Positions 3,978-31,800 of a stretch of 64,000 nt of DNA are shown here, piece after piece. The stretch lies in the IMG/VR virus record IMGVR_UViG_3300007513_000028, positions 1 through 64,000 of that record; one strand, given 5' to 3'. Each line of letters opens with the position of its first letter. Position 1 is the first letter of the stretch. The translations under genes and the position numbers were made by a program. The DNA is from a virus. The notes under the pieces were generated by a model. The model made no database searches and was not told the origin of the DNA. It was given only the letters and a program-made list of their open reading frames with translations.

Positions 3978-4622
3978 TTATTTCATTCCTTTTTTGAAAT
4001 TTCGTCTTGTATCATTCCAAACTTTTCTTCTGGTGACGCCATGAAATCTTTCCAGAGGAAGAAACAATGCAATTTCCCATTCGTCTGGCGGAACTTCCAT
4101 AAATCGAGAAGAAACCTGTTCAAATAAGTATTTTTTTACACATGGTCTAAAGTATCTATATTTAGCAGATTTCTTTAAAATTGTGTATCCATTATTGAAT
4201 AAACGTAGTCGTGTTGATTCGTCCATGTCTTCATTGGTTAAAAGATCATATAGATTGTCCATCAGAATTGCTCGCCATGTGTGAGGAAGATAGTGTAAAT
4301 TGATTCCGAGAAATCCTTCTTCGTCGGCAGCTATTGGAAATATTAGAGGAAATTTATCATAATAGGGAAGACTTTCTTTCATCTTTGGATCATATTCAAA
4401 CATGAACATTTTTCCGAGCATTATGCGACCCTTGATGGTCGGTTTCATTCTTTTATTTTGTCTTCCTATTTTTAAAATTCTTTGGGACTTTGTTCGTCGC
4501 ACAGTCTTTACGTCTTTTGCTTTTCTTCTATACCATTCTCTTGATTCTAAGACATTAGAAGGAAGTTCTCCTCGCTTCATTGTTCCTTCTATAATAGTTT
4601 TAAATGTGTTTTTGTTTGCCAT
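3978..4622 (-). CDS. Conserved T4-type virion or assembly protein, function not established
   Basis: 214 aa, basic N-terminus (many Lys/Arg up to residue 70). The central block has 'GRIMLGKMFMFEYDPKMKES', 'LPYYDKFPLIFPI', 'GFLGINLHYLPHTWRAILM', 'YRYFRPCVKKYLFEQVSSRF' and 'EWEIALFLPLERF'. I recognise this pattern as recurring beside gene 4 in marine T4-like phages, but I cannot assign it firmly. In T4 the neighbour of gene 4 is gene 2 (DNA end protector), so a gp2-like role is one possibility; this is inference from position only. The gap to gp4 is 4 bases and the next gene starts directly after its stop, so it is part of one minus-strand operon with gp4, gp54-like, gp26 and the tape measure. 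Confidence 0.7.
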   Translation of the reverse strand: MANKNTFKTIIEGTMKRGELPSNVLESREWYRRKAKDVKTVRRTKSQRILKIGRQNKRMKPTIKGRIMLGKMFMFEYDPKMKESLPYYDKFPLIFPIAADEEGFLGINLHYLPHTWRAILMDNLYDLLTNEDMDESTRLRLFNNGYTILKKSAKYRYFRPCVKKYLFEQVSSRFMEVPPDEWEIALFLPLERFHGVTRRKVWNDTRRNFKKGMK

Positions 4623-4626
4623 ATAT

Positions 4627-5085
4627 TTATTTATGTTTTGATTGTTTAATTATGCGTATTCCTCGTTTTTTTAATTCATCTTCAGTCCAGATTTCAAAAT
4701 TCCATCCTCGGTCCTTTGCATATTCTTTGGCATATTCCCATTTTGATGTATTCATTCCGTAGGCATAGACTTCTTTTATATATTTTGGGCTTTTTCTGGA
4801 TTTGACTTTGGGCGGTTTTGTTTGTCTCTTGGGTTTTATTTCTATGAGAGAGGTTTTTCCATTTGCATATGTAATCTTTAGATCGGGAAAATACTTATGG
4901 CGCTTTCCGTCAGTTTTTGAAATATAAGGAACAATGATTTCTTCGCTGCTCCATGAACGTATTTCTGGATTTTCGTCACACCATTTGAATGCCTGTCTTT
5001 CCCATAGGGAACGATAGGTGATTTTGAAGGGATTCCCTTCATATTTTTCAAGATTCTTTGGTTTCCACTTTCCTTTGTATGCCAT
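4627..5085 (-). CDS. 4: gp4-like head completion protein with TnsA/PD-(D/E)xK nuclease-type motif
   Basis: 152 aa, against 150 aa for T4 gp4. The start 'MAYKGKWKPKNLEKYEGNPF' and 'KITYRSLWERQAFKWCDENP' align closely with T4 gp4 ('MAYSGKWVPKNISKYRGDPK', 'ITYRSNWEKFFFEWLDKNPE'). Residues E48/E49, D68 ('YFPDLKI') and 'IEIKPK' (E82-x-K84) form the acidic/EIK arrangement of the TnsA-like restriction-endonuclease fold. In T4, gp4 is needed to complete the DNA-filled head before tail joining; whether the nuclease site is active is not known to me. It is the first gene of the minus-strand operon and is transcribed divergently from gp48. Confidence 0.95.
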   Translation of the reverse strand: MAYKGKWKPKNLEKYEGNPFKITYRSLWERQAFKWCDENPEIRSWSSEEIIVPYISKTDGKRHKYFPDLKITYANGKTSLIEIKPKRQTKPPKVKSRKSPKYIKEVYAYGMNTSKWEYAKEYAKDRGWNFEIWTEDELKKRGIRIIKQSKHK

Positions 5086-5149
5086 ATACTTATATATGTC
5101 GCCTAAATAAATATGTATTTTATATTTAATTTATAAAGGAAACGGTTAT
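5086..5149. promoter_or_regulatory. Divergent promoter region between gp4 (minus) and gp48 (plus)
   Basis: This 64-base AT-rich gap separates two divergent gene groups. For gp48, CTAAATA lies at 5103-5109, about 40 bases before the ATG. For gp4, the minus strand has TTAAATA at 5123-5129 and TATAAATT at 5128-5135, 38-50 bases before its ATG. These resemble T4-type late -10 boxes (TATAAATA). AAAGGAA before 5150 is the gp48 ribosome-binding site. Confidence 0.6.
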
Positions 5150-6757
5150 ATGGGAATGTTTTCAGACATGGGCTCTCAGCTATTGGGCGGCGGAAGCGGG
5201 CCTCTTGCTTCATTGTTTGGAGACAAACATTCTTCTACGGGACTTAGTTTTCCTTCTGATGTCGAAGGCGTCGGCCAGAGGCATTTTATTCGGTTTAGTA
5301 TTGTTGATATTGACGGTGGAAAAATAGAGACTGCCGGAGAAAAAAGCTCAACAGAGGCAGAAACGAGTGCCGAAGGAACTCTTCTTGGGGGTCTTGCCGG
5401 AGCCGCAGTTGGTGGCGGAATTGGAGGAGCTTTGCTGGGTGGGGTTGTGGGAAATGCTGCCGACAAGCTAGGAGTTTCGAGTGCAGTCGGCTCTCTGGTT
5501 TCTGGTGCAGAAGACATTATCGGCAACGTCGGTGGCGCACTTGATAGTGCCGTTGGTGGCATTGCAGGAAGTCTGGAAACTGGCATAGAGAGTGTTGTAG
5601 AGACTGCACTCGGGCCTGTCGTAGGAGCAGTTGATGATCTTGTGGGCGGCGCCTTGGATGTGGTTCAGGATCTTACTGCGGGTGCCTTGGATGTTGCCGG
5701 GGATTTGCTTTCTGGGGAAATTCCTGATATTCCTGACCTACCATCCCTAGATGATATTGGTGCAAAATTAAATCTTGATGCCCTGAAAGATTTGATTCCT
5801 GATCTTGATAAAATTGAGTTGCCGACGCCTGACTTTAGTATGTTAGAAAATGCATGGGATGACATTTCTGGTGCAGTCTCTGATACCTGGGGTGAAATTT
5901 CGGCTCTTCCTGGGAAACTTGCAGATGCCATACGAGATGAAGAACCGCCCGAGGCAGATGCAGCAATGCCCGCCGCCGAAGGCGAATCAGAAGAGACTTC
6001 TCCGGTGACAGAAGGAACTCGGTCAACTGTAGGTGATATTATTCTATATATTCCTTTTGGCATTTCAGAAACATATCAGGCAAATTGGAGCGGTGGAAAT
6101 CTTGGAATTTATGGTGCAATTGATACAAAGGGAATTGATACTGCTCTTAGTAAATTGGGTTCTGCCGTGTTGAATAAAAATTCTGAGGCGATTCGCGATG
6201 CAGTAAGTTCTGGGTATGATGCTCTCCAGGCAGCCGCAGATAACGCTGGAGCCAATAAGTCGGGATTCACCGCAGAATTTTTGGGAAGAGGCCTCGGCGC
6301 GGCGCTTCAGAATGATGCGATTGTAAAACATAAACTAAAATTAGAATCTGGCGGAGGGGGAGAGCGAGGCCTTTCTGTAAATCCACATTTTGATTTATTC
6401 TTTGATGGGGTCAATAATCGAACATTTACTTTTGATTTTAAAATGGCTCCAAAAAATGCAACAGAGGCTGCTAATATTGCGAGTATTGTGCGAATGTTTA
6501 AGACTCATGCAGCCCCCGGTGAAAATGCAGGAATGACTCGTTATTGGACATATCCTCATGTATTCCAAATTGAATATTGGAATCTTGAAAATACTCATAG
6601 AATTAAAGATTGTGCCCTGGTCAATATTAATGTCAACTATAGCGGAATTGGGGATAATCACACCTTCTATGATGGTTATCCAATTCAGACTGACATATCT
6701 TTGACCTTTGCCGAAATGTCACTACTCACAAGAGAAGATTTTGAACAAGGATTCTAA
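5150..6757 (+). CDS. 48: gp48-like baseplate tail-tube cap protein with large Gly/Ala-rich insertion
   Basis: 535 aa, against 364 aa for T4 gp48. The N-terminus 'GLSFPSDVEGVGQRHFIRFS' (about 31-50) and the C-terminal half (from about 290: 'ILYIPFGISETYQANW', 'ERGLSVNPHFDLFFDGVNNR', 'TFTFDFKMAPKNATEAANI', 'MTRYWTYPHVFQIEY', 'YDGYPIQTDISLTFAEMSLL') fit the gp48 family of tube-like proteins that sit on the baseplate and start tube polymerisation. Between them lies a low-complexity stretch (about residues 65-290) rich in Gly, Ala, Val, Asp and Pro, first Gly-rich ('GGGIGGALLGGVVGNA'), then amphipathic with repeated 'GALDVV/GALDVA' and 'PDIPDLPSLDDI'. gp53 starts 5 bases after the stop. Confidence 0.88.
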   Translation: MGMFSDMGSQLLGGGSGPLASLFGDKHSSTGLSFPSDVEGVGQRHFIRFSIVDIDGGKIETAGEKSSTEAETSAEGTLLGGLAGAAVGGGIGGALLGGVVGNAADKLGVSSAVGSLVSGAEDIIGNVGGALDSAVGGIAGSLETGIESVVETALGPVVGAVDDLVGGALDVVQDLTAGALDVAGDLLSGEIPDIPDLPSLDDIGAKLNLDALKDLIPDLDKIELPTPDFSMLENAWDDISGAVSDTWGEISALPGKLADAIRDEEPPEADAAMPAAEGESEETSPVTEGTRSTVGDIILYIPFGISETYQANWSGGNLGIYGAIDTKGIDTALSKLGSAVLNKNSEAIRDAVSSGYDALQAAADNAGANKSGFTAEFLGRGLGAALQNDAIVKHKLKLESGGGGERGLSVNPHFDLFFDGVNNRTFTFDFKMAPKNATEAANIASIVRMFKTHAAPGENAGMTRYWTYPHVFQIEYWNLENTHRIKDCALVNINVNYSGIGDNHTFYDGYPIQTDISLTFAEMSLLTREDFEQGF

Positions 6758-6762
6758 TATAG

Positions 6763-7410
6763 ATGGCAGATGGTAAATATTTTAAATACTTTCCGACAGT
6801 TCCTTATGATACCTTTGATGGCTCAGGCCAGTACAGGGTGGTCACGGATATATTCAAACGGGTTCGAGCAACCCTCGGAGCCAGAACTGACAAAACAATA
6901 TATTACAATTATCAGGTAAGAGACAAAGAGCGCCCGGAGCATTTGGCATACAAGTATTATGGCGACGTTCGGTATCATTGGGTAATTCTTTTGATGAATG
7001 AAATTCGCGACCCTCAATGGTGTTGGCCTCTGGACATGAATACTTTTGACAAGTATATCATAGAAAAATATGGAAGTGCCGAGGTTGCACGGGCGCAGCA
7101 TTCTCATTATGAAACAAAAGAAATACTCGCCCCGGCGACCGACGATAATTATACGGTCGGAGATGTTATTCTTCCGGCGGGCCAGATTATTCATAATGGG
7201 GATGACTTTACATATACATATGCGCCAACAATAAACGGAGTCCTTCAAGCAGAAAGGTCGTGGGCAGCAATTGATACCAACAAAAATGTTTCTGCCTATG
7301 ACAAAGAATTACAAGACAATGAAGATAAAAGAAAAATAATTTTCCTTAGACGAAACCTGCTTCCAGAATTTGTGAGTGAATTTGAAAGCCTGGTTGTGAA
7401 GAAGAGATAG
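6763..7410 (+). CDS. 53: gp53-like baseplate wedge protein
   Basis: 215 aa (T4 gp53 is 196 aa). It has the family pattern: N-terminal 'YFKYFPTVPYD', a middle part 'RPEHLAYKYYGDVRYHWVIL' and 'LMNEIRDPQWCWPLDMNTFD' (compare T4 'RPEELANAIYGNPQLYWVLL', 'MCNDNYDPYYGW'), and a C-terminal 'KRKIIFLRRNLLPEFVSEFE'. This LysM-like wedge protein helps lock neighbouring wedges together. It is followed after 3 bases by the gp27-like hub gene and preceded closely by gp48, so it is in the baseplate operon. Confidence 0.92.
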   Translation: MADGKYFKYFPTVPYDTFDGSGQYRVVTDIFKRVRATLGARTDKTIYYNYQVRDKERPEHLAYKYYGDVRYHWVILLMNEIRDPQWCWPLDMNTFDKYIIEKYGSAEVARAQHSHYETKEILAPATDDNYTVGDVILPAGQIIHNGDDFTYTYAPTINGVLQAERSWAAIDTNKNVSAYDKELQDNEDKRKIIFLRRNLLPEFVSEFESLVVKKR

Positions 7411-7413
7411 CGA

Positions 7414-8727
7414 ATGTTGGATGACCCAAAATATCAAGGAGCGGGCGATGTTATCGTTTCGCAATGTAATGTCATTTCAACAAATGGAAAACACTTGACG
7501 GAGTTTGGACCCAAAGCCTGGAATACAATAATTTTGACAGAAAGTATGGGATTAACCGGAGATGATCCTCAAATTATTTCTGGAGAAATAAAAATTCTTG
7601 ATGCAGTTAATATATACAATGAAATGAGATTTCATGGTGATGAAATTGTTATTTTGCATTTTAATACTCCCCAAAAAAAGGAAATTGTTTTTATAGGACG
7701 AGTATATGATATTGATTTGGCTTCTTTTGAGTCCAGAAGATTAATTACCTTAAAATTTTGTTCTGGAGAAAAAATAACTTCAGATTCGACTAGAATTCAT
7801 AAAACATATAGAAACGTAAATATAAAAACAATAGTAAACGATCTTTATGCTCCTTTGTTGGCAGTATCCGATAAAAAAATTGTAATTTCAGATACAAAAA
7901 ATGATTGTAGTGTGAGTTTTGCAAATAAATCGCCAATTGAGGCTTTAAATATGATAGCAAAAGTCGCAAGACCATCCAAGTACAAAGGATCTAGTTATAT
8001 TTTTTATGAACATCTTGATGGATATTTTCAATTTATGCCACTTGAACATATTGTAAATCCAGCCGAACGAGAGCCTGTGATGATTTATAACTATGATACG
8101 CCAAAACCCGGAGCAACTGCCAAGGATTTATCCTCAATGGCCAGAATTCGGAAGTTTCGTGTTCTGGAGTTACCAAATATGATTAATAATATTAAATCTG
8201 GATTATATGCATCAACTGTTGTTACGAACGACTTATTGAAACGCCAACATACTGTAAATGTATTTGATTATGAAGATTCATACAATGATTATAAGCATGT
8301 GAATTTTAATGAAGTTTCTGGAAACAAAACACTACTTACAAATAGTAAAATTTTGAGTAAACGGCGTGCGAGTCATTATCGGTTTGTTCCTACTAATTTT
8401 AAATCATTTGATACAGATCGAAATTTTACAGACGAGCGAGCCGACACAGTTTTAGAAAGGGTTTCTCAGCTTAACCAAATAAATCAGATTAAATTAGAAG
8501 TTTCGGTTTCGGGTGATAGTCAACGTCGAGTTGGAGAAATTATTGAAATAAATGTTCCAGCCATAGAGGTAAAGACAGGAGCAGATGCTGCAAGAATAGA
8601 TACAAATTTTTCAGGAAGATATTTGGTTTCTAAAATAAAACATATTATATTTAACGGGCAATATACAACAATAATGGAATTGTCGAGAGATTCGTGGCCA
8701 GTTCCTCTTCCAGAAAGGGTAATTTAA
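7414..8727 (+). CDS. 27: gp27-like baseplate hub protein
   Basis: 437 aa (T4 gp27 is 391 aa). Assigned from position directly upstream of gp5, from size, and from the hub-type sequence: 'SGEIKILDAVNIYNEMRFHG' and 'LITLKFCSGEKITSDSTRI' early on, 'YKGSSYIFYEHLDGYFQFMP' centrally, and a C-terminal barrel-type end 'SGRYLVSKIKHIIFNGQYTT' then 'MELSRDSWPV', typical of hub proteins of contractile tails. In T4 a gp27 trimer forms the cup that holds gp5 and joins the tube to the spike. The gene is more AT-rich than gp5. Spacing is 3 bases on both sides. Confidence 0.85.
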   Translation: MLDDPKYQGAGDVIVSQCNVISTNGKHLTEFGPKAWNTIILTESMGLTGDDPQIISGEIKILDAVNIYNEMRFHGDEIVILHFNTPQKKEIVFIGRVYDIDLASFESRRLITLKFCSGEKITSDSTRIHKTYRNVNIKTIVNDLYAPLLAVSDKKIVISDTKNDCSVSFANKSPIEALNMIAKVARPSKYKGSSYIFYEHLDGYFQFMPLEHIVNPAEREPVMIYNYDTPKPGATAKDLSSMARIRKFRVLELPNMINNIKSGLYASTVVTNDLLKRQHTVNVFDYEDSYNDYKHVNFNEVSGNKTLLTNSKILSKRRASHYRFVPTNFKSFDTDRNFTDERADTVLERVSQLNQINQIKLEVSVSGDSQRRVGEIIEINVPAIEVKTGADAARIDTNFSGRYLVSKIKHIIFNGQYTTIMELSRDSWPVPLPERVI

Positions 8728-8730
8728 GTT

Positions 8731-10032
8731 ATGCAACAACAAGATGTCCTTGGAATCGGGCAGACAGGAAATTTTCATTGGTGGGAAGGCGTGGTCGAAG
8801 ATAATCTCGATCCTCTCGGCGCTGGCCGATGCAAGGTTCGGATTCTTGGTCACAATTCTCCGGCAAAAGAGGATACGCCAACAGCAGAATTGCCTTGGGC
8901 GTATCCTGTCATGCCCCTGAACAGTACACATGGAAAGATTGTTGCACTAAAGCCAGGAACCCGTGTTTTTGGATTCTTTCGCGATGGTCTGGATCGCCAG
9001 CAGCCCGTAATGTTGGGAACAATTAATATTGGTTTTGAGAATGCAGGAAAAATGGAAAATTATATTGAAGATACTCCTTCCCCCACGTTCGATGTTGGCG
9101 GAAATGATGTTCCAATTATTATAGGAAAGCCTGCTCCGAGGATGGGGGATTATGGATTTTTTGATGATCGCGAAGGTTCGGGTGGAGTAATAGACGGCCA
9201 ACCAAGAAAATCTAAAGTTATTCCAGATGCAGATAAGCGCGGAGTGTTGAACCAAGAAGATGTCACGGATTATTATCCATTAAAACCAAATGAAATTAAT
9301 ACTCCAAGACTGGCCAGAGGAATTATAGAAGGAACGATTCCTGCTGCACATGCACATGGCGGCGCACAAACCCTTGTCACAAAGGTCAAGAGATTAAGTG
9401 ATAATATAACTGCCGATACGGTTGTGGAACCGAAGACAAAATTTGGCGCACAGTATCCGTTTAATACTGTAGAAGAATCAGACAGCGGGCATCTTCGCGA
9501 AGTCGATGATACCCCTGGAGCAGAGCGCCTTAAAGAAACCCATCGTACCGGAACGTTCTATGAAATTCATCCAGACGGAACAAAAGTTACAAAGGTGGTC
9601 GGAGATAATTTCTCGGTCACGATTGGCGACGATGCCGTAAAGGTTGAAGGTTCCTGTGCAGTTCATATTGTAGGCGAAGCCGATATTTATTGCGAAAAGG
9701 ATATTCGAGTAAGGACTGAAAAGACAGCCGACATTATGGTGGTAGAATCTGCGGACGTTTCTGTTGGAACGCATTTGACGGCCGCCGTCGGCCAAGATAT
9801 GAGCGCAACGTGTGGAGGCACGGCAAAGGTTACTGCTGTAGGAGATGCACTAATAAAGGGGTTCGGTAATGTTGATGTTGCCGCAGAAAAAGATATATAT
9901 CTTGCTGCCGGAGGGTCTATGACATTTAAAGATTCTTCTGTCGAAGATGCGGTCGCAAACGTAGACGAAATTATCAAAGATATTGTGGATGGCCGAGGCA
10001 ACTTGAGAAAACGAGTGGATGCGAACGCCTAA
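8731..10032 (+). CDS. 5: gp5-like central spike/baseplate hub protein without lysozyme domain
   Basis: 433 aa (T4 gp5 is 575 aa). Residues about 10-110 form the OB-fold: 'HWWEGVVEDNLDPLGAGRCK', 'VRILGHNSP', 'LPWAYPVMPLNST' and 'LKPGTRVFGFFRDGLDRQQP'. After a linker, 'HLREVDDTPGAERLKETHRT' and 'GTFYEIHPDGTKVTKVVGD' (about 253-292) open the triple-stranded beta-helix, whose short repeats (TVG/DVSVG/DVAAEKDIYLAAG) run to about 405. The T4-type lysozyme domain between OB-fold and helix is absent: the interval is only about 140 residues and I see no catalytic Glu/Asp pattern. The spike would therefore pierce the outer membrane without digesting peptidoglycan. The stop TAA is inside a CTAAATA box for gp25. 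Confidence 0.92.
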   Translation: MQQQDVLGIGQTGNFHWWEGVVEDNLDPLGAGRCKVRILGHNSPAKEDTPTAELPWAYPVMPLNSTHGKIVALKPGTRVFGFFRDGLDRQQPVMLGTINIGFENAGKMENYIEDTPSPTFDVGGNDVPIIIGKPAPRMGDYGFFDDREGSGGVIDGQPRKSKVIPDADKRGVLNQEDVTDYYPLKPNEINTPRLARGIIEGTIPAAHAHGGAQTLVTKVKRLSDNITADTVVEPKTKFGAQYPFNTVEESDSGHLREVDDTPGAERLKETHRTGTFYEIHPDGTKVTKVVGDNFSVTIGDDAVKVEGSCAVHIVGEADIYCEKDIRVRTEKTADIMVVESADVSVGTHLTAAVGQDMSATCGGTAKVTAVGDALIKGFGNVDVAAEKDIYLAAGGSMTFKDSSVEDAVANVDEIIKDIVDGRGNLRKRVDANA

Positions 10033-10035
10033 ATA
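10029..10035 (+). promoter_or_regulatory. Putative late promoter box CTAAATA upstream of gp25
   Basis: CTAAATA overlaps the gp5 stop codon and lies about 20 bases before the gp25 start, just ahead of GGAGG (10043-10047). It resembles the T4-type late -10 box. Confidence 0.45.
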
Positions 10036-10055
10036 CATAAAGGGAGGACTGTAAA

Positions 10056-10445
10056 TTGCCAGTAGCCAAAAAATGGGCAGATTTTGATTTGGATTTTACT
10101 GCACACCCCAATACAGGGGAACTCAGCATGAAATATGATGCCGATGCAATTATCAAATCTGTAAGAAATCTAATATTGACAAACCATTATGAGCGGGCAT
10201 TTCATCCCGAACTCGGCTCTAATCTTATGAAGCAATTGTTTGAGCCGATGACATTTGCAACGGCATTGAGAATCAAGGGTGCCATTGCAGAAACCCTAAA
10301 TAATTTTGAACCAAGAGTGACTGTGAATGAACTCCAAGTTGAAGCAAGAGAAGAAGAAAATGGATACATAGTATATCTCAGATTTTTTATCATCAACGAA
10401 GAAACGGAAAGAGTTTCAAAATTCTTTTTGGAGAGAAATAGATAA
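10056..10445 (+). CDS. 25: gp25-like baseplate wedge protein
   Basis: 129 aa, the usual size of gp25 (132 aa in T4), a homologue of the inner-baseplate protein conserved in contractile injection systems. 'LILTNHYERAFHPELGSNLM' and 'KQLFEPMTFATALRI' carry the family's conserved block, followed by 'NFEPRVTVNELQVEA' and a C-terminal strand pair. The start is TTG (10056), fixed by GGAGG 8 bases upstream; no nearby in-frame ATG keeps the N-terminal 'MPVAKKWADFDLDF'. gp25 forms the inner ring with gp6 and gp53 that initiates the sheath. gp6 begins 2 bases after its stop. Confidence 0.95.
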   Translation: MPVAKKWADFDLDFTAHPNTGELSMKYDADAIIKSVRNLILTNHYERAFHPELGSNLMKQLFEPMTFATALRIKGAIAETLNNFEPRVTVNELQVEAREEENGYIVYLRFFIINEETERVSKFFLERNR

Positions 10446-10447
10446 AA

Positions 10448-12322
10448 ATGGCCACCTCTTATACTACCACCTCAAATAAACTAAAGATTACAGAACTTGA
10501 TTTTGATTCAATCAAGTCGGCATTAAAAACATATCTGAAGGGTCAGACCGAATTTGAAGGATATGATTTTGATGGTTCTGCCATGAGTATTCTTCTTGAT
10601 ATTCTTGCATACAATACGCATTATAATGGATTCTATACGAACATGCTCGCAAGTGAAATGTTCATGGATAGTGCCTCTCTGCGGTCTTCTGTAGTTTCGC
10701 TCGCCAAGCATCTTGGATATACTCCGGCTTCAAAAAAAGGATCTTCTGTCGAAATTGATGTAACCTTTCAGGGAACGGGGTCGAGTATTTTAATTCCAAA
10801 GGGTGCCAAGTTTACATCTAAAATTGGAACAAACATATATACCTATCTTGCAACAGAGTCTCGCGTTGCCAAGTTAGATTCTTCTACTCTGACATATGTT
10901 GCAAAGAATGTCAAGATTAAAGAAGGAATTGCATTTTCGTCCACACAGACTGTGGTTGGAACGACAACAAACGAAACATTTGAAATTCCAAATGAAGAAG
11001 TTGACCTTGACACGCTTACTGTTGCCGTTGGTGGAGACATCTATACCAAGGCAGATGATTTTACCGAAATGACATCGACAACCAAAGCCTATTTTATTCA
11101 AGAAGGAAATCATAACAAATATGAAATTTATTTTGGGGATGGTGTAATTGGAAATAAACCAACTGCCGGAGATCTGGTTCAACTGGAATATAATGTTTCG
11201 GTCTTGGGCAGCGAGGGAAATGGTGCAAAAACATTTGTTTTGGCCGAGCCACTCATCGGAGCAACGTCGGCTACTGTTGCCCTGTCTCCTCTGTATACAC
11301 GATCATCGGGAGGTTCCGAGCGCGAAGAGACTTCCACGATTCGGATTCAGGCTCCAAGGCAATATTCGCTTCAGAAGAGAGTTGTTACCGGAAATGATTA
11401 TAAGACAAGATTAGAAAATGATTATAATATTGTAGAGTCAGTAAAGGTGTGGGGAGGAGAAGACAATAATCCTCCGGCATATGGTCGAGTTTTTATCTCC
11501 ATCAAGCCAAAGGCAGGATATGTTCTTTCTCGGGCCGAGGCTCATCGGGTGGAGCAAGATATTCTTCAAAAACGAAATGTGGTGACAGTAAAACCAAAAT
11601 TTGTTGATCCCGACTATCTTTGGATTATTCCTGATATTCTTGTTGCATATGATCCGAGAAAGTCGGCAAGGACTGCCGATCAGTTGAAGGCATTGGTGTC
11701 GGCATCAATCCTTAAATACACATCAGATAATTTAAATAAATTTGATAATTATTTTAGATTTTCGGTATTATCAAGAGCAATTGATGACACCGAAGAAAGT
11801 ATTTTAAATAATAATATGAGAATTGCAATCAAGAAACGCATCAAGCCCATCATGCGTGTTCAGGGTTCCTATCGAGTTCATTTTGATAATCCATTGTACA
11901 GGCCATATGCAAGAAATCAGCCCGTAATTCAATCTTCCTTGTTTACCTATTTGGGACATAAAAATTGTATGATTATTGATGTGGATGGGATTTTAAAAAT
12001 TGTTCAGACGGGTGGGGGAACTTCTATTGCTGGATTTAATAGTCCCGAGAAAGCGCGTACAGATTATGGGACACCAATTGATTCTAATATTGGGTCTGTT
12101 GATTATAATTCGGGGGAGATGCTTGTTGGTCCGCTCAGAGCTACGACAATTGCAGATGGTTCTGAATATATTTATTTTTCAGCAAAACCAAGAATTGATG
12201 ATATAATGGCAAGAGAGAATACTATTGTTACCATTGACAGTTCTGATATTACAGTAAATTGTATTGATGATACAGATAGAAATCGCCCTTCTATATTAGA
12301 AGATAGCGGTCATGGGTATTAA
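10448..12322 (+). CDS. 6: gp6-like baseplate wedge protein
   Basis: 624 aa (T4 gp6 is 660 aa). The N-terminal block 'LDFDSIKSALKTYLKGQTEF', 'DFDGSAMSILLDILAYNTHY', 'NGFYTNMLASEMFMDSASLR' and 'SVVSLAKHLGYTP' is the hallmark of gp6. The middle has 'IYFGDGVIGNKPTAGDLVQL' and 'YNVSVLGSEGNGA', typical of the gpJ/gp6-like wedge core, and 'TGNDYKTRLENDYNIVESVK'. gp6 dimers form the iris-like ring that opens when the baseplate changes from hexagon to star. It belongs to the 25-6-7-8 group; the next gene starts 24 bases after the stop. Confidence 0.95.
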   Translation: MATSYTTTSNKLKITELDFDSIKSALKTYLKGQTEFEGYDFDGSAMSILLDILAYNTHYNGFYTNMLASEMFMDSASLRSSVVSLAKHLGYTPASKKGSSVEIDVTFQGTGSSILIPKGAKFTSKIGTNIYTYLATESRVAKLDSSTLTYVAKNVKIKEGIAFSSTQTVVGTTTNETFEIPNEEVDLDTLTVAVGGDIYTKADDFTEMTSTTKAYFIQEGNHNKYEIYFGDGVIGNKPTAGDLVQLEYNVSVLGSEGNGAKTFVLAEPLIGATSATVALSPLYTRSSGGSEREETSTIRIQAPRQYSLQKRVVTGNDYKTRLENDYNIVESVKVWGGEDNNPPAYGRVFISIKPKAGYVLSRAEAHRVEQDILQKRNVVTVKPKFVDPDYLWIIPDILVAYDPRKSARTADQLKALVSASILKYTSDNLNKFDNYFRFSVLSRAIDDTEESILNNNMRIAIKKRIKPIMRVQGSYRVHFDNPLYRPYARNQPVIQSSLFTYLGHKNCMIIDVDGILKIVQTGGGTSIAGFNSPEKARTDYGTPIDSNIGSVDYNSGEMLVGPLRATTIADGSEYIYFSAKPRIDDIMARENTIVTIDSSDITVNCIDDTDRNRPSILEDSGHGY

Positions 12323-12346: not shown

Positions 12347-15300
12347 ATGGCAGCAATAATTAAAACTGCAAATACGCATCAGACTTCTCTTTTGGTGTCA
12401 GAACAGATCCCGGATTTTATTCGGGGAGATCATCCTAAATTTGTTACATTTATTGAAAAATATTATGAGTTTCTTGCTCAGGCTAATTCTGGAATTGCGA
12501 CTTCGGACGGCCTTTCTCATTATTATGGCGCAGATCATGCAACAAAGGTTATTACCGATATTAATGATATTGATACAACAGATCTTGATAAGTTTATTGG
12601 GTCTTTTCAAAAACAATATGGCCACGGTCTTCCCCAACAGGTGGCAGATGCAGCCGACCGAAGACTTTTATATAAGAATCTAGTTGATTTTTATCGTGCA
12701 GTAGGAACAGAAGATTCCTTTAAGATGCTCTTTCGCCTTTTGTTTAATGATGAAATTGAACTCTATTATCCGTTTCAGGATGTTTTGATTGCCAGCGGAG
12801 GAAATTATACAAAAGAATCTAGGATTAGGGTTAATTATGTTGAAAATCTGAATGACATTGAGAATACGAGGATTGTTGGGGCCACTTCGGGCGCATACGG
12901 AACTGTAGAACGGGTCCAAGTTCTTCCAGGGGGAAGTGACTCGTTTATTACAGGAAGAATTGGAAACACATCTACTTCATATACTTCTGGAGTGTCAAAT
13001 ACTGAAATTTATGACCCGATGAAATATCTTGAACATGGAAGTTCTACAGCCCACATATACATGACAGATCAATCTGGAAATTTTGATTTCTTTGAAGATA
13101 TTTATGTGGATGATGTCAATTCGACAGTTTCAAATACAATAGTGTTGCCCATGACAAAAAGTATGTTGGTTTTTGAGGATTTTCAGTATGGATCTACAAA
13201 TAATGTTATTTCTATGTATGATGGGCTGGTTCATCAGCGGGCAAATAGCACAAACCCTCCGTGGGGGTCTGCAAATATTGATTATAGCAATACCGGAATA
13301 TGGCATACCACCGGAGACGGCACCGGGGAAATTAAATTAGTCTCCAATGTCTATGGCTCATATGGTGGGGTTGTATTAGAAATTGGAAACAATAGTACGC
13401 TCGCTTCTGCGACTGGCGATCAAAGACATATTGTATTTGCAAAGAATGTGGGAATTGGTGGTGAGGATCGTCTTTATCGAATGTCCATTCGTGCCAGGGA
13501 TTTGGGTGGAAATTCTGCCGTATCTGTTGCCGAAGGAAATCGCTTTTCGGCCGGAGTTTCTTGCGTTCGTCATGACCTCAGAAAGTTGAGTGCAGACAAT
13601 TACAAAGATCAATGGGAAGATCCACTTTGGTTGGTTTCTCATAAGCAGGCAATTGATGATGAGTTTTTTGTATATACGGCATATTTCAAGGGAAGAGAAA
13701 CAAGAAGAAATGTTGGAGGTTCTCCCTATTCTGCAAAGAATTATGGCAATGGCGGCCGAAGGGATTTGACGAGCGGAACCCGATATTATAATTCTGCCCA
13801 GAAGGCAGTAGATCGAGAAGTGCTTCTTCCGTTTAATACCACTTTCATCAAACCAACCTTCAAGGTAAATGAGCCCGGAGATGGTGCAACATATTCACAG
13901 GGAATCACACAGATTGATTTTATTTCTCTTGAAGAACTTACTCCCATGCAGACTCAATTGGGTATGCATAGCGGAAGTTATAGTGACGAGCGGAGTCTTC
14001 TTTCGACAACAGGGGCACATATACAGGATGGCCATTATTGGCAAATCTATGCATATGATATTCGTTCCAAACAACAAATAAAAGACTATGCAACGGTCGT
14101 CCGCGAGGCAGTTCATCCAGCCGGAATGAAGATGTTCGGCACGACAATTTCAGAGAGTTCTCGAAGAATGAGTGACATGATTGATGTGAAGCCTGGGAAG
14201 ATTACACAACTTACAGACAATTCGTTACTCATCGACCAATACCCTGCATGGTCCCCCGATGGCACCCAGATTGCTTTCTCCCGCTATACCAATCCCGCCC
14301 TGACCCTCTATGAAATTTTTAAGATGGATGTCGATGGAACTAATGTTCGGAGCCTCATGCCAGGGTGGGGGTCCGGCTTGTACCCTGCATGGTCCCCCGA
14401 TGGCACCAAGATTGCCTTTGAGTCAAAAATACATAGCTGGCTGTGGGGGGATGCTGATGCGTATGCTCCTGTTGGTTCATATCAAAATGAGATTTATGTG
14501 ATGGATGCGGGCGGAGTTGTTGATACCGACGAATTTCCGTTTCACACGGCAGCGTCTTTAACAAGACTCACACATGATGCTCAGTCGGTGACTCCCCTGC
14601 GGGCTGATGCGCCCATCGCCGACCTTCCAAGAAAGCGGCAGCCCGCATGGTCCCCCGATGGCACCAAGATTGCCTTTGTCGCAAACACAGCCATCGCCGA
14701 GGGCGAATTCAGGGACCAAATCTATGTGATAAACGCAGATGGAACAAACCAGACGAGACTCACGAATAGTGCTACGGGTGATCGCGGTCCTTCATGGTCC
14801 CCTGACGGCACCAAGATTGGCTTTTACTCCTACCCGCATCCGAATGATGCTGGGTCTGGTAATTACAATAAAATCTTTGTGATGAATGCAGATGGGACGA
14901 ATCGGACGAAAATCCCAAATCATTCTCCTTCTATCCACCCCCCCGGTGTCATGAATGATTACTATCCACGGTGGTCCCCCGATGGCACCAAGGTTGCCAT
15001 TCAATCATGGAATATGGCTCATGCCGATTCGGCCCCGCCCAATCACAATTTTGATATTAAAGTGATGAACGAAGATGGAAGTAATCCGATATGGCTGACG
15101 AGTAATGTTGCGGTTGATCGGGGCCCCGCATGGTCCCCTGATGGCACCCAGATTGCCTTTTCCTCTTCCAGAGGCGTCGGTAATTTTGGAAACACTGACA
15201 TCTATGTAATTGACGTAAAAGAACGTTCCAACACAAACCTCCTCGACACCTTCTCCCCGGAATCTCTGGATTCCCTTGCAGGATGGTGGAGCGCAGATTC

Positions 15301-17782
15301 GGTTGTTCCAGAAAATTTTCAGGTCAAGAGAGATGTTCCGGGAGGAACCTCAAATGCAGTTTTTGGCTCAACTAAAAATCGTCTTCCCCTCGGTTGGTTT
15401 TCTGACTTTGATGATACTGGTGTAATTGTTCCTGACGATTTTGACCACATTGGCCAAACCTATAGAAATGTGTCAGCAAATAATGCTTCGGTGTCTTCGA
15501 TGTTATTTTCTGATGGTGGGGATGCCCGCGACCGTCTTGGATTGGCTGCGGACACAAAAAATAAAAGAGGTTTGGACAAAAACATATTAAAACTAACTTC
15601 AGATAGTTGGACAACACTCTCCCAAGTCGGCTTGCACTATAACCCAGATGACCAAAAATATTGGCAGGCAGGCGGCCGCTCTGATTATTATTATCCAATT
15701 GTATTAGAACCATTCAAAATGTGGGTTCTTAGTTATTGGGAAATGACATCGAATGTTATGACTGAGGTGGCTCAGGGACAAAATTATAGTGGGATGTCTG
15801 CAACCCTGGCTACCGCAAATTCTTCTACTGTTTTAAGGGTAAATTCCACACATTCTCATGTATCTTCTGAGTATGGAGATTCCGATTTTTATAGCCAGGT
15901 GGGCCATGTCCGTGGCTATGGGTTGCAAGAAAACTATGTATGGCAAAGAAATGCAACAACATTGGATATGCGGAGATCTCCGGCAACCCGGGCCCGGCTG
16001 TCAATAAGCATTCCTCATAGAATCCCAGCCGGAGGAGACTATTCGGCAAATGTAGTACAATGGTTCGATGGGTTTATGCTCGAAGAATATTCTAATACTG
16101 TTCATGGCTGGATTCCCGGCCTTACGGGCGAGGGCACAAGCGGGACTGCTCATGGATATGATGCCGTTTTCCCATATAAAACTCCATATGTCAAGCCAGG
16201 ATACTCTGGAGCAAACGTTATTTCATGGAACGACCGAAGCCCAAACAAGCATCATGTGTATGCAAATACTCATGGTGGAATTTTTTATACCCCTCAGTAT
16301 GTTGCCAATGCAATTAACGGTATGCCTGCGATTCGCTTTTCGGCAAATACAGTAATCAATAATCCAACGCCAAGGAGATCTGCCTATGTGTGGTCTGACC
16401 ACACAGGAAGCGCAAGCAAGGTATATGAATGGAGTTCCATTGGTGGCCCGGGAACAGACAAGCCTCCGACTGTAGGCTTACAGGCAACAAAGAGTCTTGC
16501 TTCTAATACACTTTCCGTTCCTGTTGCAAATACATGGACAGTCATGGCGGTTGTTCAATCTAATCTTACAATCAATTCTTCATTTTATGACTCCACTCTT
16601 AATCCAATGATAATCAATTCTGGGTATGGCGGAAACAAGGACTCTCTATCAGACGGCGCATTAAACCAGCCCGGAACGTTATCTTTAGGATATGATGTTG
16701 ATGGAACAATGGGCGCCGTTTTAATCAATACAACAAATTCAACAGGTGGAATTGAGCAGACAAATACGGCAACGGTTTCGACGTTCGGGGCCGCCTCTCC
16801 CAATACTGCCAGACCTTTGACAAATACTTCTTATGCCACAGGAAAAAATGTATTCAGAATTGTTGGTGTTTCTATCAATGCTGCATCTGGGTCAACTTCC
16901 GAACTTTTGAATTTCCATGTTGATGGTCGTCGGTTTTCAAATTCAGAAATTAATAATATTTCAAACGATTTGAGTCGAACTGGGTTGAGTAATCAATTAC
17001 AGCAGAATTATGTTACTTCGATTGGTGCCTGGGCACCATCAAATAATACAATTTGGGACACAGGAACTCATGGTGTGAATGCAAAATATCCATACGGAAC
17101 TGCAAGTTGGGACGGAGATATTGCAGAAATTGTTGTATTCAATGAAAAACTTTCAAATACAAAAATTGCACTTGTCGAAGGGTATCTGGCTCACAAATAT
17201 AGACTGCAAGAACATCTAATTCACAAAGACGGAACCACAAACGAAACCGAAGTATATCGGTGGGAATATGCAAACACGCAAAATGGATGGGAGTTTTTGA
17301 ACCAGCATTCCTCTGTCCCCATTACATATGTGTGGGAAGGCGGAGATTCCAATAATTATATTCAAGTCACCGGGTCTGGTCAACAGACAATGCAAATTAC
17401 CTTGCCGACCCACATTCATGGAGCCGCATATGACAAGGTAGGATTTAGATATAAGATGACCGCCGCCGGAATGGAGCCAACATCAAACACATATGCATTC
17501 AAATGGAAGAACGATGATAGTGAAACCTTACATTCCCTCCCTGATCTCGGAGATGATGGCCACAACGGGCTTAATGTCTGGACGGAGAAGTATTTTGACT
17601 TGTCTGGTCAGGCTGAATGGGTAGGAAAGAAAATTACATATTTGCAGTATGATATGAATGAGGGCACCGAAACAGTAAACCAGATAGATTGGGTGTATGT
17701 GTCAGGAAATAATCATCCGCATCCATATAGATACAATGCCCCCACAGCAGTTGGAGCAAATAATTGGAATATTAATTATTAA
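12347..17782 (+). CDS. gp7-position baseplate wedge protein with beta-propeller, LamG-like and jelly-roll adhesion domains
   Basis: 1811 aa, between gp6 and gp8 where T4 has gp7 (1032 aa). The N-terminal 240 residues ('SLLVSEQIPDFIRGDHPKFV', 'TFIEKYYEFL', 'LYKNLVDFYRAVGTEDSFKM', 'LFRLLFNDEI') are the conserved baseplate module; a jelly-roll-like part follows (about 275-540) and a conserved 'HYWQIYAYDI...VREAVHPAGMKMFG' block near 560-600. After that come additions: six PD40/TolB-type propeller repeats (616-961); a LamG-type lectin fold split by an insertion ('LAGWWSADSV' at about 973, then 'VISWNDRSPNKHHVYAN' at about 1285 and 'VEGYLAHKYRLQEH' at about 1615); the insertion ends 'VVQWFDGFMLEEYS', a carbohydrate-binding jelly-roll pattern; and a final jelly-roll (about 1630-1800). 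I infer surface glycan binding. Some cyanophage annotations call the gene at this place VrlC; I cannot verify the relation. Confidence 0.88.
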   Translation: MAAIIKTANTHQTSLLVSEQIPDFIRGDHPKFVTFIEKYYEFLAQANSGIATSDGLSHYYGADHATKVITDINDIDTTDLDKFIGSFQKQYGHGLPQQVADAADRRLLYKNLVDFYRAVGTEDSFKMLFRLLFNDEIELYYPFQDVLIASGGNYTKESRIRVNYVENLNDIENTRIVGATSGAYGTVERVQVLPGGSDSFITGRIGNTSTSYTSGVSNTEIYDPMKYLEHGSSTAHIYMTDQSGNFDFFEDIYVDDVNSTVSNTIVLPMTKSMLVFEDFQYGSTNNVISMYDGLVHQRANSTNPPWGSANIDYSNTGIWHTTGDGTGEIKLVSNVYGSYGGVVLEIGNNSTLASATGDQRHIVFAKNVGIGGEDRLYRMSIRARDLGGNSAVSVAEGNRFSAGVSCVRHDLRKLSADNYKDQWEDPLWLVSHKQAIDDEFFVYTAYFKGRETRRNVGGSPYSAKNYGNGGRRDLTSGTRYYNSAQKAVDREVLLPFNTTFIKPTFKVNEPGDGATYSQGITQIDFISLEELTPMQTQLGMHSGSYSDERSLLSTTGAHIQDGHYWQIYAYDIRSKQQIKDYATVVREAVHPAGMKMFGTTISESSRRMSDMIDVKPGKITQLTDNSLLIDQYPAWSPDGTQIAFSRYTNPALTLYEIFKMDVDGTNVRSLMPGWGSGLYPAWSPDGTKIAFESKIHSWLWGDADAYAPVGSYQNEIYVMDAGGVVDTDEFPFHTAASLTRLTHDAQSVTPLRADAPIADLPRKRQPAWSPDGTKIAFVANTAIAEGEFRDQIYVINADGTNQTRLTNSATGDRGPSWSPDGTKIGFYSYPHPNDAGSGNYNKIFVMNADGTNRTKIPNHSPSIHPPGVMNDYYPRWSPDGTKVAIQSWNMAHADSAPPNHNFDIKVMNEDGSNPIWLTSNVAVDRGPAWSPDGTQIAFSSSRGVGNFGNTDIYVIDVKERSNTNLLDTFSPESLDSLAGWWSADSVVPENFQVKRDVPGGTSNAVFGSTKNRLPLGWFSDFDDTGVIVPDDFDHIGQTYRNVSANNASVSSMLFSDGGDARDRLGLAADTKNKRGLDKNILKLTSDSWTTLSQVGLHYNPDDQKYWQAGGRSDYYYPIVLEPFKMWVLSYWEMTSNVMTEVAQGQNYSGMSATLATANSSTVLRVNSTHSHVSSEYGDSDFYSQVGHVRGYGLQENYVWQRNATTLDMRRSPATRARLSISIPHRIPAGGDYSANVVQWFDGFMLEEYSNTVHGWIPGLTGEGTSGTAHGYDAVFPYKTPYVKPGYSGANVISWNDRSPNKHHVYANTHGGIFYTPQYVANAINGMPAIRFSANTVINNPTPRRSAYVWSDHTGSASKVYEWSSIGGPGTDKPPTVGLQATKSLASNTLSVPVANTWTVMAVVQSNLTINSSFYDSTLNPMIINSGYGGNKDSLSDGALNQPGTLSLGYDVDGTMGAVLINTTNSTGGIEQTNTATVSTFGAASPNTARPLTNTSYATGKNVFRIVGVSINAASGSTSELLNFHVDGRRFSNSEINNISNDLSRTGLSNQLQQNYVTSIGAWAPSNNTIWDTGTHGVNAKYPYGTASWDGDIAEIVVFNEKLSNTKIALVEGYLAHKYRLQEHLIHKDGTTNETEVYRWEYANTQNGWEFLNQHSSVPITYVWEGGDSNNYIQVTGSGQQTMQITLPTHIHGAAYDKVGFRYKMTAAGMEPTSNTYAFKWKNDDSETLHSLPDLGDDGHNGLNVWTEKYFDLSGQAEWVGKKITYLQYDMNEGTETVNQIDWVYVSGNNHPHPYRYNAPTAVGANNWNINY
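14195..15232 (+). repeat. Six TolB/PD40-like beta-propeller repeats inside the gp7-position gene
   Basis: The motif 'aWSPDGT(K/Q)IAF' followed by a stretch ending 'I(Y/F)VMnaDGTN..rLT' occurs six times. The DNA cores are near 14243-14274, 14383-14415, 14641-14680, 14789-14820, 14966-15000 and 15124-15160. The core bases (TGGTCCCCCGATGGCACC and close variants) are almost identical between copies, unlike the intervening sequence. Blade spacing varies from about 140 to 260 bases. Six copies suit a six-bladed TolB-type propeller. Confidence 0.9.
15264..17215 (+). other. LamG/concanavalin-like lectin domain with nested jelly-roll insertion (within gp7-position gene)
   Basis: The first LamG-like strand 'LAGWWSADSVV' is encoded near 15274; the rest of the pattern, 'VISWNDRSPNKHH', 'TPQYVANAINGMPAIRFSAN' and 'IAEIVVFNEKLSNTKI', begins only near 16210. 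The intervening region encodes another domain whose end 'VVQWFDGFMLEE' is at about 16055-16090. This looks like one domain inserted in a loop of another. Domain names are by pattern, not by search. Confidence 0.6.
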
Positions 17783-28871: not shown

Positions 28872-31800
28872 ATGCCCAAGTTTGATTCACCGATAAATAT
28901 AAAGACTCTCAAAAGCAGAAGTAGCAATTCTGCATTGGTGCATCTTGGTGATGACAACAGAGTTGGCATAGGTACTGAGGCTCCAGAAACAAAACTCCAT
29001 GTCGATGGTGCCATTACTGCCACTGGCCTGGTTGTCCCTGCCGGAATTTTGTCTACGTCTGTGGACACCGCCGAGTTTTGGGGATTTAATCCAAAATTTG
29101 ATACATGGTATTTTGATGAACTTAATTTTCCTGTGGCCAATGGATATATTCAGACATCCGGCACAGATAAAGTTGAAAAGTCTTCGGATAGTGTTCTTGG
29201 TTCCTATAGCGCCCGATGGGCCCAGAGCATAGGATCTGTCTGGGAACGAGAGGTCGAATTTCCAGAACCTCTTTATGCCAATGTCTTTGTCCAAGGAACA
29301 TATTCATATAAGTTTGAGTATTATGGTTCAGGAGAACCCGGCCTTGCGATCACGCTGACACATAGAGAAAAAGCTAACAGCGACCTTTCGTCTGTTGTCG
29401 GAAAAACATGGGCTTCCGAGTATTCAAATACGTTTATTTCTCCTACATTTCCTTTGCATACGCTTGGGAGTTGGCAGACCGCCGCATGGCGAGCGCATAC
29501 TCCTCCGAACCGAGAAATTACCAAACTAAAGATTGAAATTATTGCAAGTTCTGCTTTGGGGCAGACTTATGATTCGGCAGACGCCGGGATTGAATTGAGT
29601 GGCGGCGCCGGGACTGCGACATCCATTGGTGGTGATGATGATTATGATTGGTATCTGGATGGCCTGGCATTCAATTTTATGCATCCCGATGCAAGAATTG
29701 ACCAAGAGGGAAGAATCACGGGCGCATATATTGCATATGCAGCAATTGATGATGCACACATAAAGAATATGATTTCGTCTCCTGCGGCAAGGGTTATTGC
29801 CCCAGCCAGCCACCCCACTTCGGCTGGCTTATATGTAGACGGATTGGTTGCAAACGACGACTATGCTGCCGGGTGGAGCATATCCAAAGACGGAACCATC
29901 AAGGGAACGGACATTAAAATTTACGGTCCTGATGGCAAGGTCAAGATTTCTGGAAGTGGAATAAATCCATTTGCCGAGTGGGCTGGCCGAAGCCTTGCAG
30001 ACCTTGACTCAAGTGCATCGTCCTATCTCTACGGATTGGCATTTGAGGAAAGTAACTCCACCGGGCTTATGGCCAACGTCGGATTCTTGGCAACGTCAGG
30101 AACCGATTCTGATGCCATTGTTTCCAGCGCACAGTCATTATATATTGCCAATACTGTTGATGGCACGGCATCTATCGGAAGCGCACTTGCAAACGGAACA
30201 ATTCAGTACAACGGAATTGCATCAAATGCTCCTCCGGGTTCTATTTTTACTGGCGGAAAGAATGTAGTCAAAAATCAAGATGCCTATATTTTGTTTTTGG
30301 CCAACACGCAAAAATGGGATTCTGATATTGGTGCCCAGCAAAAGTATCATGCAAACACTCTTCTTGGTGAATATGGCCTCTATGTTCTAGGAACACCCAC
30401 AGTCGGCGGATGGGTATATCATCCCCATGCAAATGACACATGGTATTCCATTGATTCTCTTCAGTCTGGCAATCGACTACATGAAGACGACTTTCTGGTT
30501 GTCGGTAAAATCAAAACAGATATTTCTGGCAACATTCTTTCTGGAGTTCTCCAGCCTCCGAAATCTCCAGATTCGATTACTGCTCCAGAGGCATTAACTT
30601 CTGCTCCTGCCATTAATATTCCGGTTGGTGGAATTCTTTTTGCAGATATTCATTTAAACCAATGGAATCATACTGCAAACTCAGGTGAAGTCCAACTCAC
30701 AAATTCGAGAAATAATCCAAATACTGAATTTACTTTTATCCATCCCGGAACAAATGATCCAAACGACAGCACACTTCATACAGTAAACGGTGCCTATGGT
30801 GTTCTTACAAGCCTTGAAGATTTTCCAGGGACTCGATATATTACATTTGTGGGTGCAGATAGAACAGACGAGCAAGTGGCAGCGGGCACACCAAGCTCTC
30901 GATTTACATTACAGACTGGCCATTCTCCAGATTTTGTTGCAGCCTTTCCGCTCGGCACTCCTCCGCGATGGTACTACAATCAAGATGAAGGAAAGTTTTC
31001 TACATTCACGCCGACTGACAGAGATTGTATTGTTGCCCGTGTGGATGCCAATGGATCAGTAGGGGCACTCACAAACATTTATCGGTATGCCGAACGCGAG
31101 GCAACCACTCCAGAGGGCGGAGTAATTTCTGATGTAATCATAAATCCCCCATTGGGAATGGCATCCGGCGGAACTCTGTTTGCAGATCTACATGTAAATA
31201 AAGAATTTAAACAATCCGACAATACCACTCCAGCCAATACTGGTTTTGTTGCTCTGGTAAATACCGAAAATAATCCAAGAAACAGGTTCTTTGTCATTCA
31301 TCCAGACAACGGATACTTTTGGGAAGTTGCAAATACTGGTCGCGGCGTCGTAACCAACTTAAATAACGGAGTGCGAACTGGGGGTTCAAATACAGGAACC
31401 CGACATATTGCATTCGTCGGAGGCACCTGGCCGCACGAAGAGAACCGATTCCCGATGGCAGCCGGATATGAAAATGTTTCCAATGATTTTATTGCAGTAA
31501 CCAAATATCATCCAGACACAGGAAAGATACATCCAACTTCTGGAGTATGGTATTACGACAATGGGCAGAATGCGACCACCACGTTTACTGTCAATGCCAA
31601 TGATTTTATTATTGCCACACTCAGTTCGTTCAATGCACAGACAGATGGGATCGACCAAGTAACCCGCTGGTCCGGCCGTGCCGCACAGATTGAAATCAAC
31701 GGAGAAATGGTAACCGTTGACAGCATAAGGAACGATCTGTTGGGTGGCATTGCTCATGTACTCGACTATGCCGAAACGGCTGCAAACACGGCAATGGATC

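Follow-up and report, generated by a model that had tools for sequence, protein, structure and literature searches.

A PD40/TolB-type β-propeller in the baseplate wedge protein of an uncultured T4-like phage: presence/absence among relatives and a candidate role in host adhesion

The propeller and the wedge protein carrying it

The window, i.e. the whole stretch of 64,000 nucleotides analyzed here, comes from a 69.7-kb contig of an uncultured IMG/VR virus of the T4-like tailed type (IMGVR_UViG_3300007513_000028). It displays a T4-type baseplate gene order: a lysozyme/hub gene, a gp25-like gene (phrog_261), a gp6-like gene (phrog_219), the gp7-position gene and a further wedge gene (phrog_438). 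The principal features of the locus are:

10448-12322, + strand: gp6-like baseplate wedge protein (phrog_219, E=4.5e-156; PF21379)
12347-17782, + strand: gp7-position baseplate wedge protein of 1811 aa, the propeller carrier (PF23786 Baseplate_wedge, E=3.3e-7; phrog_17744, E=1.7e-38)
12347-12970, + strand: conserved wedge N-terminal module, residues 1-208 (43-60% identity in an alignment with four relatives)
13850-14161, + strand: second conserved core module, residues 502-605, with HPAGMKMFG near its end (matches in the relatives L022, L012, L011 and L028)
14201-15214, + strand: six-bladed PD40/TolB-type β-propeller, residues 619-956 (six PD40 matches, AlphaFold2 model, TolB as top PDB match)
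15242-17782, + strand: C-terminal region of the gp7-position protein ('SPESLDSLAGWW...AEIVVFNEKLSNTKIALVEGYLAHKY'), conserved in L022, L028 and L017
17830-19551, + strand: downstream baseplate wedge protein (phrog_438, E=1.5e-65)

The assignment of the propeller-bearing protein to the gp7 position, made in the initial annotation, is upheld by both its setting and its sequence: the genes follow a gp25-gp6-gp7-gp8-like order, with phrog_219 upstream and phrog_438 downstream, and profile searches match its N-terminus to PF23786 and phrog_17744, both of which are baseplate wedge families. The wedge N-terminal module (residues 1-208) is matched by 54 phage records. Among phage records, the window gp6 has its best relatives, with identities of about 35%, in Methylophilales phage Melnitz, Synechococcus phage BUCT-ZZ01 and Pelagibacter phages. 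Pelagi- and cyanomyophages lack T4 Gp7 and apparently have VrlC in its place (PMC7029224); by position only, the window protein can be grouped with this VrlC-type replacement.

An HPxGxxxFG-like motif recurs in most of the gp7-position proteins surveyed, followed by a C-terminal extension of about 30 to more than 1300 residues; the motif conveniently marks where the variable payload of these proteins starts. The C-terminal region of the window protein has no Pfam match; by eye only, it appears concanavalin/LamG-like, and a predicted structure of residues 966-1640, based on four sequences, was discarded (pLDDT 30.8, pTM 0.30). Elsewhere in the window, a 5879-aa open frame (28872-46511) contains modules that match parts of the L011 and L012 gp7-position proteins, hinting at a possible exchange of modules between gp7 and this giant protein.

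The propeller itself is evident at the level of sequence. The motif WSPDGT occurs in frame six times (residues 635, 682, 768, 817, 876 and 929; nt 14249-15148), and a search of the whole gp7-position protein with PD40 (PF07676) recovers six stretches with E=2.4e-38 and 129.7 bits as against a gathering score of 20.9, an E-value which excludes chance as the source of these repeats. Each of the six blades is a PD40 match above the Pfam cut-off at genome level. The initial annotation had described six repeats, each with a WSPDGT-type and a 'VMnaDGTN' element: the former is present throughout, while the latter, which we describe as [IV]-x-x-[MI]-x-x-DG-T/S-N, can be made out clearly in blades 1, 3, 4 and 5, its form in the other two (2 and 6) being degenerate.

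An AlphaFold2 model computed from 367 residues and 20 aligned sequences yielded a propeller (mean pLDDT 78.7, pTM 0.82), and the solved structures closest to it are those of TolB: 1c5k (E=1.2e-16) and 3iax (3.5 Å over 318 columns). The TolB homologue 2ojh is also matched, over 277 residues with a TM-score of 0.70 by target length. By query length the TM-scores of the structural matches are just 0.5-0.6, which we attribute to the loops of the phage domain, long and modelled with low confidence. The structural matches share 16-20% identity with the domain, and oligogalacturonate lyase and S9 peptidases are also among them. Matches among predicted viral structures are many and generic. A virion structural protein of Cyanophage S-TIM5 (BFVD H6WG31, E=9.6e-10) is likewise among the structural matches, and may offer an experimental entry point. 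The strand content comprises six a-b-c sets and an N-terminal strand, KITQLT, which fills the place of the missing sixth d-strand; judged from sequence and secondary structure, this arrangement fits a ring closed in a 3+1 manner. The protein is not a TolB: there are phage wedge genes on both sides, it has neither the TolB N-terminal domain nor a tol-pal operon around it, and no Pfam match to the TolB N-terminal α/β domain is seen in the gp7-position protein.

Presence, absence and history of the insertion

Comparison with the relative L022, whose gp6 is 57% identical to that of the window, defines the boundaries of the insertion:

14162-15220, + strand: 353-aa segment (linker plus propeller) missing in L022, from the gp7 alignment

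The gp7-position frame of L022 is complete with 1467 residues, and is 53% identical to the window protein up to residue ~605 and 39% identical from ~959. As the flanks match with only ~5 residues between them, as against 353 in the window, the segment is present or absent at a clean site. The domain had been placed at 14195-15232 from the sequence alone, in good agreement with both the core and the segment absent from L022.

A survey by the gp7 N-terminus finds seven lineages (L139, L141, L142/L143, L147, L126/L148, L149/L150 and L156) in which the sequence runs across the same junction with no propeller, and the slot in propeller-less relatives is occupied by short linkers of varying size, 5-45 residues. 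Among loci found through gp6, PD40 is absent from all 46 other complete gp7-position proteins; in the 29 incomplete ones no PD40 is seen, their incompleteness meaning that a propeller cannot be excluded. Across 50,697 phage records we found no cultured-phage tail protein with a PD40 propeller, the one cultured PD40 match being a separate gene of Thermus phage Tsatsa. The domain is therefore far from universal in gp7-position proteins, and the surmise that it is no standard part of T4-type baseplates holds in the 50,697 phage records. Not counted as phage propellers were human faecal 'Bacteriophage sp.' scaffolds, which are unverified, unannotated or bacterial-looking, and two records of Acinetobacter phage MD-2021a (CAKLQF020000007.1 and CAKLQH020000006.1), in which a gene is annotated as tolB of the Tol-Pal system and which look like bacterial sequence mislabelled as phage.

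Four gp7 lineages possess the propeller: the window-type contigs; L012 (= L154), whose contig stops in blade 2; L017/L018 (= L158), with the same whole architecture as the window protein at about 30% identity and the propeller at the same junction; and L011, where it lies in a different module order, after other modules. Both kinds of phage occur together in single assemblies: 3300013115 has the window type along with a propeller-less relative, and 3300009370 likewise has both.

In the gp7 tree, well-supported branches force at least three changes of propeller state, and both a clade of the window with L012 and one of the window with L017 are rejected. The gp6 tree agrees, pairing the propeller-bearing window with the propeller-less L022, and L012, which has it, with L028, which does not. 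A history of a single gain and two losses needs as many changes as one of three independent gains, and in the poorly resolved tree of the propellers themselves a single origin of the four gp7 propellers is not rejected (p=0.40).

Within the blade motif of the window, identical residues are encoded by identical codons in 91 of 112 comparisons (81%), where codon use in the rest of the domain leads one to expect 35% (p≤0.0005). This homogeneity is weaker in L011 (60% vs 38%) and there is none in the propeller of L008, which lies in a podophage-type tail protein described below. The GC3 of the domain is 0.51 as against 0.32 and 0.35 on its two flanks and a window mean of 0.339 (SD 0.05). In L017, L011 and L012, the GC3 of the propeller is close to that of the surrounding sequence. 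The sole other gene in the window near this value is the terminase gene; as it reaches the same GC3, we dropped GC3 as proof of foreign origin and treat it as suggestive only. Together, codon homogeneity and raised GC3 fit, and prove neither, a recent acquisition or blade-to-blade homogenization in the window lineage. In a search biased by patterns taken from the window, the closest sequences belong to generic PD40 proteins from Acidobacteria, Chloroflexi and Balneolota rather than to the TolB of proteobacteria. We accordingly name no donor, since these cellular matches span several phyla and the patterns derive from the window itself.

It is conceivable, if rather doubtful, that the T4-like wedge proteins of this clade have a swap site in the slot following HPAGxxxFG, with PD40 propellers circulating there as evolvable host-range cassettes whose near-identical blades recombine with one another. 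Were this the case, shuffling or homogenization of blades would provide a repeat-based route to an altered binding face without a retroelement. Three contigs (L009, L010 and L012) end inside the propeller around blades 1-2 (window 14311-14365), a pattern suggestive of short-read assembly failing where the blade DNA is almost identical. Assemblies may under-represent phages that carry domains of this kind.

Propellers of this kind also turn up in other tail proteins. A regular six-bladed PD40 propeller lies near the C-terminus of a podophage-type tail tubular protein B (phrog_376), unrelated to gp7, at 8930-9823 of L008 (IMGVR_UViG_3300035199_000466). The nearest cultured relatives of that protein cover it by about 40%, in pieces and in parts other than the propeller. 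It represents an apparent independent recruitment of the domain to a different tail type, and PD40 propellers are not peculiar to one protein family. PD40-like repeats are also seen at the end of a 2107-aa protein of L014 (3300009370_000018, 4175-10495), a homologue of the tail-region protein at window positions 50594-54733; in this phage, the gp7 slot itself is empty (L028/L156). A 526-aa WD40-like propeller protein related to phrog_19311 (unknown function) is encoded at 6618-8195 of L013, a short viral contig.

A putative binding face and the role of the propeller

In cellular PD40 proteins and L008 the B-C loop is nearly always 8 residues long and the D-A loop 10. The B-C loops of the window propeller, in contrast, have 11-23 residues in all six blades as against 7-12 (usually 8) in 33 loops of other propellers, with lengths gathered by hand (p=2e-5), and two of its D-A stretches are expanded. 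The WSPDG turns have kept their length, as have the turns of the opposite face other than in blade 2; thus, one face of the disc is elaborated. The largest elaboration is in blade 2:

14447-14641, + strand: B-C loop of 23 residues and ~37 more before blade 3, modelled with low confidence (pLDDT about 50 for residues 101-110 and 141-160 of the model)

The elaborated face suggests a specialized binding face, an argument from anatomy rather than a proof.

In the baseplate of phage A-1(L), each of six wedges comprises two gp6-like chains and one gp7-like chain, with the third chain being peripheral (PMC10966104). By analogy with the six peripheral wedge chains of solved baseplates, six copies of the propeller would be displayed per tail. 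The Bacillus phage Vp4 provides a precedent for such a display: its baseplate wedge protein Gp119 has carbohydrate-binding folds and binds host cells, whereas the counterpart in Deep-Blue is much shorter (PMC11406892). Given this precedent, and a payload of widely varying size after HPAGxxxFG, we consider it fairly probable that the propeller is an optional host-adhesion module mounted on the baseplate wedge. The core modules would dock the gp7-position protein into the wedge; the propeller, in the payload region just after the HPAGxxxFG core, would then be exposed at the surface, with about six propellers ringing each tail tip. Its elaborated face, formed by the B-C and D-A loops, may contact a host-envelope glycan or protein, and the propellers could help hold the tail at the host surface before contraction. 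Gain, loss or exchange of the slot's content among related phages is what a host-range part should show, and the variable presence looked for in receptor-binding or adhesin modules of otherwise related phages is observed here. Since relatives exist without it, the propeller may be a dispensable decoration. Two roles were initially proposed, namely binding of host surface proteins or glycans and imitation of a host protein. We favor the former as the best interpretation; nothing specific speaks for mimicry.

The PD40 group also takes in structural scaffolds and accessory domains of enzymes. The propeller could correspondingly be a rigid spacer that positions the C-terminal region or neighboring fibers with no host contact, a role that would suit its location between the wedge core and the conserved C-terminal module and that has a parallel in the nozzle propellers of T7 and SU10, which are structural (cited in PMC10607447). 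We consider this unlikely: in relatives, no more than 5-45 residues fill the slot ahead of this C-terminal module, so that no such spacer is needed, and a strong expansion of loops on one face is not predicted by the role.

An enzymatic propeller of the glycan lyase or hydrolase type, degrading a surface polymer, is more improbable. The oligogalacturonate lyase and S9 peptidases among the structural matches point that way, and for six-bladed propeller domains of Klebsiella phages a depolymerase function has been predicted (PMC11448410). On the other side, the PD40 match is of the TolB type and TolB ranks first among the structures, and no catalytic residues were identified at this level of detail. 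Further, S9 enzymes require an α/β-hydrolase domain, and Pfam finds none in the gp7-position protein.

Less probable still is a role in envelope transit, whereby the propeller would imitate TolB during penetration by binding Pal, or else a different partner associated with Tol-Pal or peptidoglycan. The central canyon of TolB, the closest solved fold, does bind Pal and also colicin peptides (PMC2821528), but the phage domain has just the generic PD40 repeat in common with TolB at the low structural identity given above, lacks the TolB N-terminal domain, and, as far as the biased search goes, has its nearest sequences among PD40 proteins outside proteobacterial TolB. Finally, an assembly chimera or host contamination joined to a phage contig, to which the GC3 of the segment (0.51 vs 0.32-0.35 in the rest of gp7) might point, is hardly credible: near-identical contigs (99.9%) in three other records share the 5' junction (L007, L009 and L010) and one of them (L007) also the 3' junction, giving identical junctions in four and two records respectively and so no single-assembly artefact; one open frame runs throughout; and the independent relatives L017/L018 have a propeller at the same junction.

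Host recognition by uncultured T4-like phages is mostly obscure, because their tail genes diverge fast and their hosts are often uncultured. This bacterial-type domain, with its clear empty/filled polymorphism at a fixed site, is a compact candidate which can be expressed alone for binding tests. A further suggestion is that wedge proteins, though commonly regarded as structural, provide the mounts on which exchangeable adhesins are carried.

Comparison with known systems

Our searches of the open-access literature for PD40 with phage tail, or TolB with baseplate, found nothing relevant. Propellers as such are known from phage adhesins (phi11, phiKZ and PRD1); the literature searched seems to contain no description of the TolB/PD40 type, of a propeller placed in a wedge protein or of its behavior as a presence/absence cassette. 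With the C-terminal propeller of bacterial TolB and with PD40 proteins, the window domain shares the repeat family PF07676 and the nearest solved fold. It differs from TolB in being embedded in a wedge protein, in lacking the TolB N-terminal domain and in its much longer B-C loops. The 'WD40 periplasmic protein' of Tsatsa (PQ109078) likewise has PD40-type repeats in a cultured phage, but as a stand-alone gene and not as part of a structural protein. That gene (PQ109078.1, 18061-19005) adjoins one for a LexA-like regulator, with an integrase and a HEPN gene near; it is likely an accessory gene of the lysogeny region, and possibly one of lysogenic conversion.

In phi11, Gp45 is a propeller-bearing receptor-binding protein (PMC4901313), which like the window protein places a propeller on the host-facing part of the tail baseplate. 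Unlike the latter, it is a trimeric, separate receptor-binding protein and not a wedge protein, and its five-bladed propeller is nearest to glutamine cyclotransferase. As cited in the same source (PMC4901313), phiKZ gp131C has a seven-bladed propeller at the baseplate edge, with unconfirmed function, and PRD1 P2 a five-bladed one: these similarly place propellers at the periphery of phage attachment devices, but with other blade numbers, and they are not presented there as presence/absence insertions. The nearest precedent with a binding test is Vp4 Gp119, likewise a wedge protein bearing an accessory fold, whose counterpart in a related phage is much shorter. In Gp119 the folds are CBMs, the host is Gram-positive and binding has been demonstrated, whereas the window protein has a propeller for which we infer binding.
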